Source: a virus. Taken from it: a stretch of DNA of 37,240 nucleotides. Of this stretch, positions 10,232-13,724 are shown in pieces. The translations under genes and the position numbers were made by a program. The notes below the pieces were generated by a model that was not told the origin of the DNA, did not search any database, and saw only the letters and a program-made list of their open reading frames with translations. The stretch spans positions 1 to 37,240 of IMG/VR virus record IMGVR_UViG_3300027749_000258; one strand, given 5' to 3'. How positions within the stretch are numbered: the stretch's first letter is position 1; every line of letters begins with the position of its first letter.

Positions 10232-10678
10232 TTAAACCGCTTCCCAGAGCGACTTCTGCCCACGCAGAAGTTCGTCAGTATCAATCCTTGGTCTGCTCTT
10301 GACGTTCCAGTTGCCGCCGCCACGCTCGCCAACACAATTCCATCCAGACGCCTTCAGACTAGCGCCACCCTCTGCCGGTAGCGTGTAGGTAATCAACCTT
10401 CTGTACCCCAACGCTTTCGCCGCACGCCAAGCCGCACCGTACAGCATTGAACAAGCGTTCTTGGTTCCGTCCGTACAACATCGGTTTACCTCAAGCACCC
10501 AACCGTTATCCAAATGCCTGGATACCGGCCTACCAACAATCGCCACGCCAACCACCTTATCGCCATCACTCACCGCAATTGAAAACTTATGCCCGACCAC
10601 CGGATTGTGATGCCGATGGTGTATCTCAACAAAGGCGTTGGCCTCTTCAAGCGAGATCGGCGTGATTGATAAAGACAT
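10232..10678 (-). CDS. XF1762-type GNAT-fold protein
   Basis: This 148-aa protein contains EIHHRHHNPVVGHKFSIAV, then DKVVGVAIVGRPVSR and EVNRCCTDGTKNACSMLYGA, followed by ALGYRRLITYTLP and GASLKASGWN. This series matches the XF1762 family, acetyltransferase-fold proteins found in many phages and prophages. The substrate is unknown, so acetyltransferase activity is inferred from the fold. It ends 9 bp before terL. There is no convincing Shine-Dalgarno before the ATG at 10678; the leader is A/T-rich on the minus strand, which is unusual here and could mean weak or special initiation. It is probably not a core virion gene. Confidence 0.82.
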   Translation of the reverse strand: MSLSITPISLEEANAFVEIHHRHHNPVVGHKFSIAVSDGDKVVGVAIVGRPVSRHLDNGWVLEVNRCCTDGTKNACSMLYGAAWRAAKALGYRRLITYTLPAEGGASLKASGWNCVGERGGGNWNVKSRPRIDTDELLRGQKSLWEAV

Positions 10679-10890
10679 TTTTCAAAAAATAAAAAAAATT
10701 CTTGCGGGGCCACCGTTACCGTGACCGGTCGCCCGCCGGCCCTACCCGGCCCCCTCGGCGCGTAGGGGAAAACCCTCGGTCGGACCGTCGGGGCCTGAAC
10801 TTTGACCTTTAAACCGTTGATTTCATTGGACTTTTGCCATCAGCGCTGCGACGCATTGGAATGATGGCGGAGGATGCGTCCGCCATCGGC
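10679..10890. other. 212-bp GC-rich noncoding spacer with a hairpin
   Basis: This is the longest gap without a gene. Its middle (about 10705-10800) is strongly GC-rich. It contains GTTAC plus ACCGGT and CGGCC palindromes near 10715-10760. The edge next to the GNAT gene is A/T-rich (T runs on the minus strand). At 10863-10887 a perfect 9-bp stem (GATGGCGGA/TCCGCCATC, 7-nt loop) lies just behind the stop of the small-terminase-like gene. No U-run follows it, so it may stabilise or process mRNA instead of ending it. No open reading frame with a credible start was seen. Confidence 0.6.
10863..10887 (-). terminator. Hairpin after the small-terminase-like gene
   Basis: It has 9 perfect base pairs around a 7-nt loop and begins 4 nt after the stop codon at 10891-10893. 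There is no T-tract on the minus strand after the stem, so an intrinsic terminator is only a weak call. It may act as a 3' mRNA stabiliser. Confidence 0.35.
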
Positions 10891-11427
10891 CTAGGATTCA
10901 TGCGGGTTTGCGGGGTGTTTTGCATCAATACATACCTTCTCACTTACCGTAACCGCATCCGTAACAGCCGTAACAGGCTCCGTTACGGTCAGTAACGGCG
11001 TATCCATCTCAATGATCTCGGCCTCGATCAAGCGTGCTTGCGCCTGGGCGAGTGCGTCGGTGATGCTGATGTTGCCGCTCAGTTCGATCTGGCGCGGTGC
11101 TTCGGTCCAGCGCATCTGCGTCTTCGTCCACCAGATGAGCGACGCTACGTCGCCGGCCATCGCCTTCTGAAACAGCGTCTTACCGATCCCGGCGCTCGCC
11201 TTCGCCCTGCCGCGCTCAAGCTCGGTCATGAAGTACTTGCGTAGCGTCGTCGTATTTATGCCATCGCCAATCAACGGCGCAATGTGATGCTCAGCCACTC
11301 CCCAGTTCGCCAGCTTCTCAACCATCTCTCGATCCTTATCATTCGGCTCAAACGGATTCCGACCTGCGTTTGGACGAGCGCCTCCATTCTTCTTCTTTTC
11401 TTGAACTGAATTTTCAGTTTTCGCCAT
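10891..11427 (-). CDS. Small-terminase-like DNA-binding protein
   Basis: This 178-aa protein opens with a basic, flexible stretch ending KKKNGGARPNAGRNPF, a form often seen at the N-terminus of phage small terminases and related HTH proteins. Residues 33-75 (REMVEKLANWGVAEHHIAPL, then INTTTLRKYFMTELERG) look like a helix-turn-helix. A helical oligomerisation segment follows (KASAGIGKTLFQKAMAGD, then WWTKTQMRWTEAPRQIEL). The C-terminal 38 residues are Val/Thr-rich low complexity encoded by five GTAAC/GTTAC repeats. It is upstream of terL, separated by the GNAT gene. It would recognise the packaging site. A transcription regulator is the alternative. Confidence 0.65.
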   Translation of the reverse strand: MAKTENSVQEKKKNGGARPNAGRNPFEPNDKDREMVEKLANWGVAEHHIAPLIGDGINTTTLRKYFMTELERGRAKASAGIGKTLFQKAMAGDVASLIWWTKTQMRWTEAPRQIELSGNISITDALAQAQARLIEAEIIEMDTPLLTVTEPVTAVTDAVTVSEKVCIDAKHPANPHES

Positions 11428-11460
11428 TTCCCAATTTTCCCCTCAAGGTGAAACCTTTGC

Positions 11461-11590
11461 GTAACGTAACGCCCCGCATCGTACCGTAACACCGTAACAC
11501 CCTAAAGGGTGTGTTACGTTACGTTACGGTAAACTCGCCTTTGCCGCCGTAACAATGTTACGCCATGTTACGGCGTGTTACGGTTGTTAC
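11461..11590. repeat. Cluster of GTAAC/GTTAC repeats (candidate ori or pac site)
   Basis: Within 130 bp there are 12 copies of the same pentamer in two orientations: GTAAC at 11461, 11466, 11486, 11494 and 11549, and GTTAC at 11513, 11518, 11523, 11557, 11567, 11577 and 11586. Most are preceded or followed by CG or ACG. The centre (11497-11512) forms a 7-bp hairpin ACACCCT-AA-AGGGTGT flanked by inverted GTAAC/GTTAC arms. The cluster lies between the replication gene and the small-terminase-like gene. Five more copies occur inside the latter's 3' end (10949-10996). Function is inferred from structure alone. Confidence 0.75.
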
Positions 11591-13452
11591 GGACTAACTT
11601 TTAGAATGAGTTTAGACCCCAAGACTGTATCTTTAACCAGCCATCCTTTATCGTGCTTGCCTAAAATTTCAGCATCCGTCAGATCCCTGATGATCATCCC
11701 CGGTCTTGCCGATGCCTTGAGGTGCTGGTCAACCGAGTTGGCTTTGACGCCTTGCTCTAACAGAAACGTCTTAAACGCCTCCCTGCTGACGTAGGGCATT
11801 TCATCCACAACTTTCGCACCGCCAACGAACCAAGCGCGTTCCAAGTTGGTTTTGTGTTCTGCTAGTTTGTCCTCCTTAGGAGTAGGCATCCGAAGGTCGC
11901 CCTCGGCAAACATCTCAAACACCGCCCCAGGCAGCGGCATCCCATCTTCGTCCTGCCAACCCAGATCAACTGGGCTTAGACATCCGAACAAGTCCGCTGG
12001 CTCTGGCGCATCTTTCTGCTTGGTGCAAGACACGACGATCTCATGCGTCTTGCCATGAACCAAAATGCTCGCATCCAGTGCCCCGCGCCACGCGCTAGAA
12101 CCGCGCGCACGCTGTTTGGCTTCGTTACTGTGGCCTAAGTGATGGATCAGCATGGTCGTGGCGCTGAGAGCCATTGAGACCACGTTACAGGCATTGATCA
12201 TCGCCCTTGAGTCTTTGGCCGAGTTCTCGTCTCCTGACATATGGTTATTCAAGGTGTCGATGTTGACTAACGCAACTGGTTCCGAGGTCAACGCCCGGAC
12301 TGCCGCGATCACCTGAGTGGCAGCGCCGGGGCCGTCCATGTCAATGGCCTTGTTGCTGATTAGCAAGTTGTCCAGACTGGTCACGTTGTTACGTTTGCAC
12401 CAGCTTGCGATACGCTGGCGCATACCGTAGTTACCCTCACCGGCTAGATACACCACGATGCCGGGCTTGGTTCTAATTCCGTGCCAGTCGATCCCGCTGG
12501 CGATACAACAAGCCATGTCCAGCGCAACGAACGTCTTACCTACCCCAGACTCGCCATACATCATCGTTGTGGCGTATGCCGGAAGCCATCCCTTCACAAT
12601 CCACGGCACAGGGCTTGGTTGGCCCAAGAAGCTCGTCGCACGGGTCAGGAAGTAGTCTCGTGTTTCCTCTTGCGTAAAAAGCGTGTCAAGGGCCGCAGAA
12701 CCGAGCGCGTTACTAGCTGCAACGTCTGCGTCTGGTTCGTACCGCGTGACTGACCTTGCAATCTGCTTGATCTCGCTTGATGGTAATGGGATTTCGCAAC
12801 GTGTCTCATTAGCAACACTAATCGCGGCCAAGATCTCCGCTTCAGTCATCCCAAACGAGCGCATCGCACCGGCCAAACTGGTCAAGCCATCGTTACGGTT
12901 ACCTTGGATCAAATCGCCGTTGGTTGTGGGCGCGACTTTGCGCTGCCCAAGGAGCGGCAACCAATGGGTTGGTATTTCGGTTGGCGCTACACCGTCCAAC
13001 GGATCGCTAGATGCTTCCCACTCGTAGGCGCGGTTCTCGATTGTGGACGGGTAAACGATGAAGTACCTGCCATCGGCCAGCAGGTCTATCCCATCGGCCA
13101 GCTTGCAGGATCGGATGCCGTCCACGTGCTTGGCAACGTAATGCTGCCCGCCACCGGCGGTCATCGCCATCACGCCATCAGGGATCTGGCCGTGATCAGA
13201 GAGCCATTGCTCCCAACTAGCGTCGCCGCCGTTGCGTGGGTCAATGTCAAACACCACGATACCGCTTGCGCTGCCACAAGCAATACCGACGTTCAAGTTA
13301 GGGTTCTGACCCCACCAACGCTGGATCTGGGCCGGGTCTGTCGTTGCATCGTTGACCCCATGGGCGGTGGCTGGAACCTTGCCGTTTGGCACTACTGGTA
13401 GTACTCGCCAACCCCATGAGGCGTAAGTCAGGGCGGCTTCAATCTTGTTCAT
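11587..13452 (-). CDS. Prim-Pol primase and RecA-like ATPase replication protein
   Basis: This is a two-enzyme replication protein of 621 aa from the chosen start MNKIEAALTYASWGW. The N-terminal Prim-Pol domain (about 1-170) shows metal-binding FDIDPRNGG (about 68-76) and TAGGGQHYV with the conserved His. A helical linker of primase C-terminal type follows (GNRNDGLTSLAGAMRS). A RecA/RepA-like ATPase has Walker A GESGVGKT (300-307) and Walker B region PVALVNIDTLNNH. The C-terminus (about 540-621) looks like a winged helix. An upstream in-frame ATG at 13521 is possible, but it overlaps the cro-like gene. The chosen ATG overlaps the cro-like stop by 14 bp, suggesting coupled translation. It probably primes and unwinds DNA at the origin. 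Confidence 0.88.
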   Translation of the reverse strand: MNKIEAALTYASWGWRVLPVVPNGKVPATAHGVNDATTDPAQIQRWWGQNPNLNVGIACGSASGIVVFDIDPRNGGDASWEQWLSDHGQIPDGVMAMTAGGGQHYVAKHVDGIRSCKLADGIDLLADGRYFIVYPSTIENRAYEWEASSDPLDGVAPTEIPTHWLPLLGQRKVAPTTNGDLIQGNRNDGLTSLAGAMRSFGMTEAEILAAISVANETRCEIPLPSSEIKQIARSVTRYEPDADVAASNALGSAALDTLFTQEETRDYFLTRATSFLGQPSPVPWIVKGWLPAYATTMMYGESGVGKTFVALDMACCIASGIDWHGIRTKPGIVVYLAGEGNYGMRQRIASWCKRNNVTSLDNLLISNKAIDMDGPGAATQVIAAVRALTSEPVALVNIDTLNNHMSGDENSAKDSRAMINACNVVSMALSATTMLIHHLGHSNEAKQRARGSSAWRGALDASILVHGKTHEIVVSCTKQKDAPEPADLFGCLSPVDLGWQDEDGMPLPGAVFEMFAEGDLRMPTPKEDKLAEHKTNLERAWFVGGAKVVDEMPYVSREAFKTFLLEQGVKANSVDQHLKASARPGMIIRDLTDAEILGKHDKGWLVKDTVLGSKLILKVSP

Positions 13453-13612
13453 GATCTGCACGCAGCTTTCCCTCGGTTTTAACTTCGATCTCGTACTGTC
13501 GCGCCATCGGCGGGCGTTCACCCCACCTGTAGATCACCTGCGGCCATATCCCAAGCGCATCGGCGAGCTTTTTCAGCCCGCCAAAGTGCTTGATCGCTTC
13601 CTCTGTTGTCAC
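13439..13612 (-). CDS. cro: P22-Cro-like HTH repressor
   Basis: This 57-aa gene starts with GTG at 13612, 5 nt after a perfect AAGGAG. The protein reads (M)TTEEAIKHFGGLKKLADALG, then IWPQVIYRWGERPP, then ARQYEIEVKTEGKLRAD. It aligns by eye with P22 Cro over its length: HFG at the first helix, AxALGI at the turn, VxxW at the end of the recognition helix, and YxxEIxTxGxL at the C-terminus. It should bind operators in the adjoining divergent promoter region and adjust early transcription. It is the first gene of the leftward arm and overlaps the primase start. No CI partner was found. Functional identity with Cro is inferred. Confidence 0.85.
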   Translation of the reverse strand: MTTEEAIKHFGGLKKLADALGIWPQVIYRWGERPPMARQYEIEVKTEGKLRADHEQD

Positions 13613-13673: not shown

Positions 13674-13724
13674 CAACTGCACAACCGGATGGCCCGAATG
13701 TGCGGTTCCAACCAAGGAGTAATC

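Follow-up and report, generated by a model that had tools for sequence, protein, structure and literature searches.

A pentamer iteron array 3' of a primase-helicase gene as the probable replication origin of an environmental phage, with changing iteron words among its relatives

An array of 12 copies of the pentamer GTAAC, lying directly behind the gene of a Prim-Pol/RepA-type primase-helicase, is very probably the replication origin of an environmental tailed phage, with the pentamers (hereafter "words") acting as iterons that are read by the phage's own initiator. The window, i.e. the complete stretch of DNA analyzed here, is an IMG/VR record of 37,240 bases. The computed evidence consists of a constant position and layout of the array in related phages, a hairpin whose arms covary, a covariation of the word with the C-terminal reader domain of the initiator, and an enrichment of DnaA boxes. 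An earlier note on this DNA had proposed that the repeats are either an origin or a packaging (pac) site. Position, conservation, C-terminal covariation and the DnaA boxes of relatives strongly support the first half of this claim, and the second half did not hold up.

The repeat array and its genomic context

On the minus strand, the region from 6.2 to 13.5 kb encodes a P22-like portal, a large terminase, a Mom-like protein, a small-terminase-like protein and a Prim-Pol/PriCT_1/AAA_25 primase-helicase, the proposed initiator (Table 1). A Cro-like reading frame of 57 aa (13439-13612, minus strand) overlaps with the GTG codon listed as the start of the primase-helicase gene, and a Cro-like gene likewise lies ahead of repA in MW202867; the real start may thus be further downstream, at an internal ATG around residue 25. 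An Rfam search of positions 10600-12000 yielded no RNA family. No close cultured relative of the window phage was found, and a scan of bacterial genomes delivered only 23 loci, mostly fragments in MAGs.

Table 1. Coordinates of the array, its parts and the neighboring genes in the window. Single words are given by position and in the sense of the initiator gene.
Feature	Position	Strand	Basis
Prim-Pol/PriCT_1/AAA_25 (RepA-type) primase-helicase, proposed initiator	11587..13521	-	Pfam, PHROGs
C-terminal winged-helix domain, residues 545-644, proposed word reader	11590..11889	-	AlphaFold2, covariation with the word
Recognition helix, residues 594-600	11722..11742	-	Gln599 codon (11725-11727) is the best word predictor
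Main iteron array, 12 GTAAC words	11461..11590	-	Word positions, spacing statistics, spacing kept in relatives
Left set: direct words in ~10-bp steps, one inverted word	11586, 11577, 11567, 11557; inverted 11549		
Linker GGCAAAGGCGAG between both word sets	11534..11545	-	Compared across arrays
Tandem triplet after the linker, 5-bp steps	11523, 11518, 11513		
Hairpin/palindrome ACACCCTAAAGGGTGT between triplet and inverted words	11497..11512	.	Arm pairing in relatives
Inverted words beyond the hairpin	11494, 11486		
Right-flank motif CGATGCGG	11474..11481	-	GATGYRG counts in relatives
Extra inverted pair	11466, 11461		
Small-terminase-like gene, 178 aa, holds the second cluster	10891..11427	-	PHROG 12540 / 309
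Second cluster, five GTAAC words in the 3' end of the small-terminase-like gene	10949..10996	-	Word count, codon test

All 17 GTAAC/GTTAC copies that had been claimed for positions 10949-11590 are present, five of them in the second cluster and 12 in the main array. The spacing between the initiator gene and the small-terminase-like gene is 159 bp and not 130 bp as given in the earlier note, and the last word (11586-11590) includes the stop codon of the replication gene. The central hairpin described there was recovered with its 7-bp stem and a loop of 2 nt. The linker is GC-rich rather than AT-rich; AT-rich stretches lie outside the array.

The main array packs 12 words into 130 bp, whereas none of 300 Markov shuffles had more than 5, and no other pentamer in the window clusters as strongly. 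When pentamer counts were compared with shuffled or expected sequence, as had been suggested, the excess proved to be local to the clusters at 10949-11590. Outside positions 10900-11600, GTAAC was observed 50 times with 51 expected from trinucleotides, and GTTAC, with 44 observed and 33-39 expected, is slightly high. A genome-wide excess of GTAAC in the window was rejected as a separate signal, since the trinucleotide composition accounts for most of it outside the clusters.

A fixed scaffold with a changing word

To be counted as an array, at least 7 copies of one pentamer had to lie within 160 bp just downstream of the gene, and only distinct primase-helicases with enough downstream sequence were considered. 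With these settings, 211 of the 235 distinct relatives carry a single-pentamer array directly 3' of the primase-helicase gene (within 330 bp), as opposed to 13 of 590 random background stretches. In these phages the words lie at set distances from the end of the primase-helicase gene, whose stop codon is included in the first word. Lack of conservation in related phages had been named as grounds for dismissing the repeats; position and layout are in fact kept, and it is the spelling of the word that varies. Besides GTAAC, we found GGAAC, GCAAC, GTAGC, GTCAC, GGGAC, GGTAC, GCCCCT, TGACA, CGTAC, GATAC, CGGAC and others.

Followed in the direction of the initiator gene, the conserved layout starts with three to four direct words in ~10-bp steps and an inverted word, followed by the linker. 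The center is made up of a triplet spaced at 5 bp or a doublet spaced at 9-10 bp and then the hairpin, with CTTTAG, CTATAG or CTTAAG as its core; two inverted words and a flank resembling that of the window form the right part. The hairpin arms vary in sequence and their pairing is kept: arm positions 1-5 pair in 33, 33, 26, 24 and 21 of 34 distinct relatives, while the shuffled means are 18, 13, 11, 13.5 and 13. The linker has the exact form found in the window in 30 of 211 arrays, with TGACAAAACTAAC and other forms elsewhere. GATGYRG is present in 131 of 211 array regions and in 36 of 211 random stretches from the same loci.

In most cases array and initiator gene remain together, even in the many relatives with 0.4-3 kb of genes between array and small terminase, and in some relatives an extra gene has been inserted on the initiator side of the array. 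Cultured phages of Alteromonas, Salicola and Idiomarinaceae have the array at the same place. Their homologue aligns only from the ATPase domain onward; in place of Prim-Pol it has a primase part annotated as TOPRIM or DnaG-like.

Some loci deserve separate mention. The densest array, with 17 CGGAC words behind the gene of a homologous helicase, was found on an Opitutae MAG contig (L446), and some GGGAC phages (L122 and relatives) have a second stretch of words between the initiator stop codon and the canonical array. Genes of the DNA-modification type have a hot spot of insertion between initiator and small terminase (long-gap loci, e.g. L338, L014, L328 and L235), among them ParB_N with a methyltransferase-like part, the PAPS-reductase family and a TET-associated glycosyltransferase. 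In the window, the Mom-like gene lies immediately after the terminase.

Words within the small-terminase-like gene

The Val/Thr-rich tail reported for the terminase-like protein is encoded as described, and the accompanying suggestion that coding and signalling share the same DNA gains support for this tail from Val-Thr codon use and from words in three reading frames. In 32 distinct tails, GTA or GTT is used in 125 of 127 Val-Thr pairs, compared with 7 of 23 in the Prim-Pol (primase) genes; GTA/GTT make up 438 of 1057 Val codons overall. A second cluster of the phage's own word is found in 29 of 51 GTAAC loci and in 1 of 53 other loci. The cluster is thus specific to a lineage. Codon use and frames indicate that the tail words, where present, are under selection as DNA. 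They most likely provide the initiator with a further, accessory place to bind, comparable to the distal iterons that serve regulation in other replicons. In two phages with the word GTCAC (L106 and L113), the terminase tail still contains GTAAC twice (GGGGGTAAC), which was probably left behind when they recombined with a GTAAC phage.

The repetitive VT-rich peptide would also be expected if the words were a functionless tandem-repeat expansion or a repeat at the codon level. We consider this extremely improbable, since the positions and both orientations of the words are conserved across relatives, all words of an array change together, and the tail words are kept in three frames with the above preference for GTA/GTT.

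The word follows the C-terminal domain of the initiator

As the full-length model of the initiator has a mean pLDDT of only 67, we used its C-terminal part alone (AlphaFold2 domain model: pLDDT 87.9, pTM 0.78). The modelled domain shows the winged-helix pattern of a helix-turn-helix, a recognition helix and then a beta-hairpin wing. Foldseek and VIA-align returned generic winged helices only (CRP, ArsR and linker-histone folds), weakly, with Z about 5-6, and a PDB search with the sequence of the reader domain gave no significant match.

Where the nearest neighbor by C-terminal sequence and that by ATPase domain disagree, the word agrees with the former in 25 cases and with the latter in 2; against the neighbor by Prim-Pol part the ratio is 34:2, and in all such counts the pairs are not independent, the sequences being related and recombining. 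Prediction of the word from the nearest neighbor of the C-terminal half succeeds in 87% of cases, not 100%. Among pairs with at least 88% identity in the ATPase domain, the C-terminal halves are on average 83% identical when the word is the same and 60% when it differs. Natural minimal pairs illustrate this. L097 and L106 (GTAGC/GTCAC) are identical at 248 of 251 N-terminal and 213 of 216 ATPase positions and at only 36 of 77 C-terminal ones; for L054 and L056 (GTAAC/CGTAC), the respective values are 249/250, 213/216 and 49/75. L136/L171 is a further such pair, and L126 and L138 share 257 of 265 residues over the N-terminal part, yet have GTAAC and TGACA. Chimeric initiators (L118, L139, L199, L280-L282), in which Prim-Pol, ATPase and C-terminal reader have been exchanged independently between phages, were also observed.

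In an enlarged set, 1542 pairs with at least 75% C-terminal identity share their word and 734 do not. The latter comprise GTAAC/GGAAC (438), GCCCC/CCCCT (294) and GCAAC/GTAAC (2). We took GCCCC and CCCCT for a single word that was cut out in two different frames, and the other two combinations for switches by a few residues. Statistically, the word follows the C-terminal winged-helix domain, and not the small terminase, the Prim-Pol part or the ATPase domain.

This bears on the idea of a P22-like pac site with the small terminase as its reader, to which the five words inside the terminase-like gene, the 12 words just upstream and the P22-like portal of the same genome would lend themselves. 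However, different words (GTAAC, GGAAC, GGGAC, GCCCCT, TGACA, GTAGC/GTCAC) accompany terminases of 91-99% identity, and the small terminase is therefore not the word reader. At 75% terminase identity or more, 143 of 367 pairs differ in word, whereas at the same threshold for the C-terminal half of the initiator only 3 of 390 pairs from the loci of this comparison do so. Moreover, inserted genes mostly come between array and terminase and leave the array next to the initiator gene, some insertions being on the initiator side, and most non-GTAAC relatives have no tail cluster. A pac function is thus very unlikely.

Residue 599 and the switching of words

The 31 GTAAC proteins of one subfamily are told apart perfectly from its 24 GGAAC proteins by a single column, position 599 in the numbering of the window, which holds Gln or Met in the former and Val or Thr in the latter. 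This column carries the full label entropy and is the best of 678, in a test that comprises only 4 well-supported independent pairs. All listed GTAAC signatures of the window's own subfamily also have Gln599, and GCCCCT-type proteins of two subfamilies have Asn599. The C-terminal domains of L305 and L329 (GTAAC/GGAAC) differ only by Q599V, S606A and P607T.

On the tree of the ATPase domain the word changes at least 16 times, and at least 4-5 of these changes are forced by well-supported branches. Relatedness and recombination of the phages mean that the counts for residue 599 and for the tree are, again, not fully independent. L305 and L329 differ in linker and hairpin arms as well as in their words, which would suit the exchange of a block of reader plus array; between L118 and L126 the linker is well conserved and all words differ. 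Both routes of word change, block exchange and mutation, may operate.

Evidence for an origin and a proposed mechanism

Counts of the perfect DnaA box TTATCCACA are 176 for the 550 bp surrounding the arrays (211 in all) and 14 for the other ~1.3 Mb of these loci (1.52 versus 0.011 per kb, about 140-fold). Such boxes lie beside the arrays in 95 of 211 loci. The window's own subfamily has them in 11 of 63 loci, with 12 boxes near arrays and 1 elsewhere, and the window itself contains no DnaA box within 2 mismatches at 10901-11700. The skew minimum that might have been expected at the array is found elsewhere: cumulative GC skew reaches its minimum at 13686, and because this is a divergent gene junction, GC skew is not informative about the origin.

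Covariation of word and initiator would likewise arise from same-word binding at an operator or partition-like site, where the initiator or another regulator controls the late operon or segregates the DNA and has no role in the start of replication. Initiators often autoregulate, and the two genes on either side of the array are transcribed in the same direction. Nevertheless, such a site is improbable: DnaA boxes are concentrated beside the arrays, the array is located 3' of the initiator gene and not in front of it, the hairpin and the two oppositely oriented sets are conserved, and in the precedents of SaPI, PICI and SCCmec the origin is exactly there (PMC7581432, PMC6092414).

For the replication origin that we favor, the following mechanism can be proposed. 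The 5-bp iterons, which flank a small hairpin on both strands just 3' of the initiator gene, would be bound by the C-terminal winged-helix domain of the Prim-Pol/RepA helicase, one domain per word, in steps of ~5 and 10 bp. The two oppositely oriented sets would assemble and load helicase rings, which would open the DNA at or near the linker and hairpin. The fused Prim-Pol (TOPRIM primase in some relatives) would then prime, with host DnaA helping via adjacent boxes in many relatives. In related phages, reader domain and words are exchanged or mutated jointly, which lets one scaffold carry many words. Binding, ring loading and strand opening are predictions of this model, and the mode and direction of replication are what we infer along with them.

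Comparison with known systems

The origins of SaPI and SCCmec elements consist of an iteron array directly 3' of the gene of a self-loading helicase and are bound by the C-terminal domain of this helicase (PMC7581432); PICI origins are at the same place and have two iteron sets (PMC6092414). The phages share the short iterons 3' of an initiator helicase gene, the Cch2 word AAGTG also being 5 nt long, and, on statistical grounds, the specificity set by the C-terminal domain. Two iteron sets are present here as well, but there is no AT-rich melting region between them; a hairpin-bearing linker stands in place of the AT-rich core. The helicases differ too: SaPI Rep proteins belong to the DUF927 or D5/Primase_Cterm families, whereas Pfam gives AAA_25, Prim-Pol and PriCT_1 here, i.e. 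a RecA-like RepA helicase fused to Prim-Pol or TOPRIM. Finally, many interchangeable words are found in these tailed phages, unlike in the satellites.

In the PLE satellites of Vibrio, likewise, only the DNA-binding domain of RepA covaries with the origin and swapping is repeated, with origin-directed nuclease targeting as documented driver (PMC8263062). However, PLE iterons are ~30 bp long, of two types and read by an N-terminal RepA_N domain, in contrast to 5-bp words of over a dozen types, a C-terminal winged helix and switches by as few as three residues. Geminiviruses also have virus-specific iterons of 5-6 nt near a constant stem-loop, which co-evolve with a few residues of Rep (PMC12548392, PMC10653810), but their Rep is an unrelated HUH nuclease for rolling-circle replication, and the phages give no evidence of nicking.

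The alpha protein of phage P4 is a primase-helicase fusion with a C-terminal origin-binding domain, ori/crr iterons and a second, distant cluster, an arrangement similar to that in the window with a different helicase family. To our knowledge, comparable word diversity has not been described for P4 alpha/ori. The system is best read as an iteron origin that would work like those of the SaPI/SCCmec/P4 type, but with a different helicase and extensive word switching.

Implications for the phage family

When an origin-directed nuclease attacks them, PLE satellites replace the DNA-binding domain of RepA jointly with the origin (PMC8263062). Lambda replication is silenced by plasmids with the lambda origin (PMC3349717). 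A similar pressure may plausibly drive word switching in the phages. We tentatively put forward, as a possibility to which we give somewhat less than even weight, that the origin in this widespread environmental phage family is a constant scaffold into which different 5-bp words can be fitted, with a few recognition-helix residues determining which one. Repeated switches of the word, through exchange of the domain or through a few mutations accompanied by a concerted change of ~10 sites, may have served to escape cross-talk with, or sabotage by, elements reading the same word. With spellings that change along with a few residues of the reader domain, the family offers a natural code-breaking set for the recognition of origins by initiators.

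With the reading presented here, an origin and an initiator would be assigned to a large, almost wholly uncultivated phage family, in which many natural experiments tie single initiator residues to single iteron bases. The evolution of replication specificity, the joint change of about ten dispersed sites and the role of origin words as a battleground between phages and satellites would thereby become testable.
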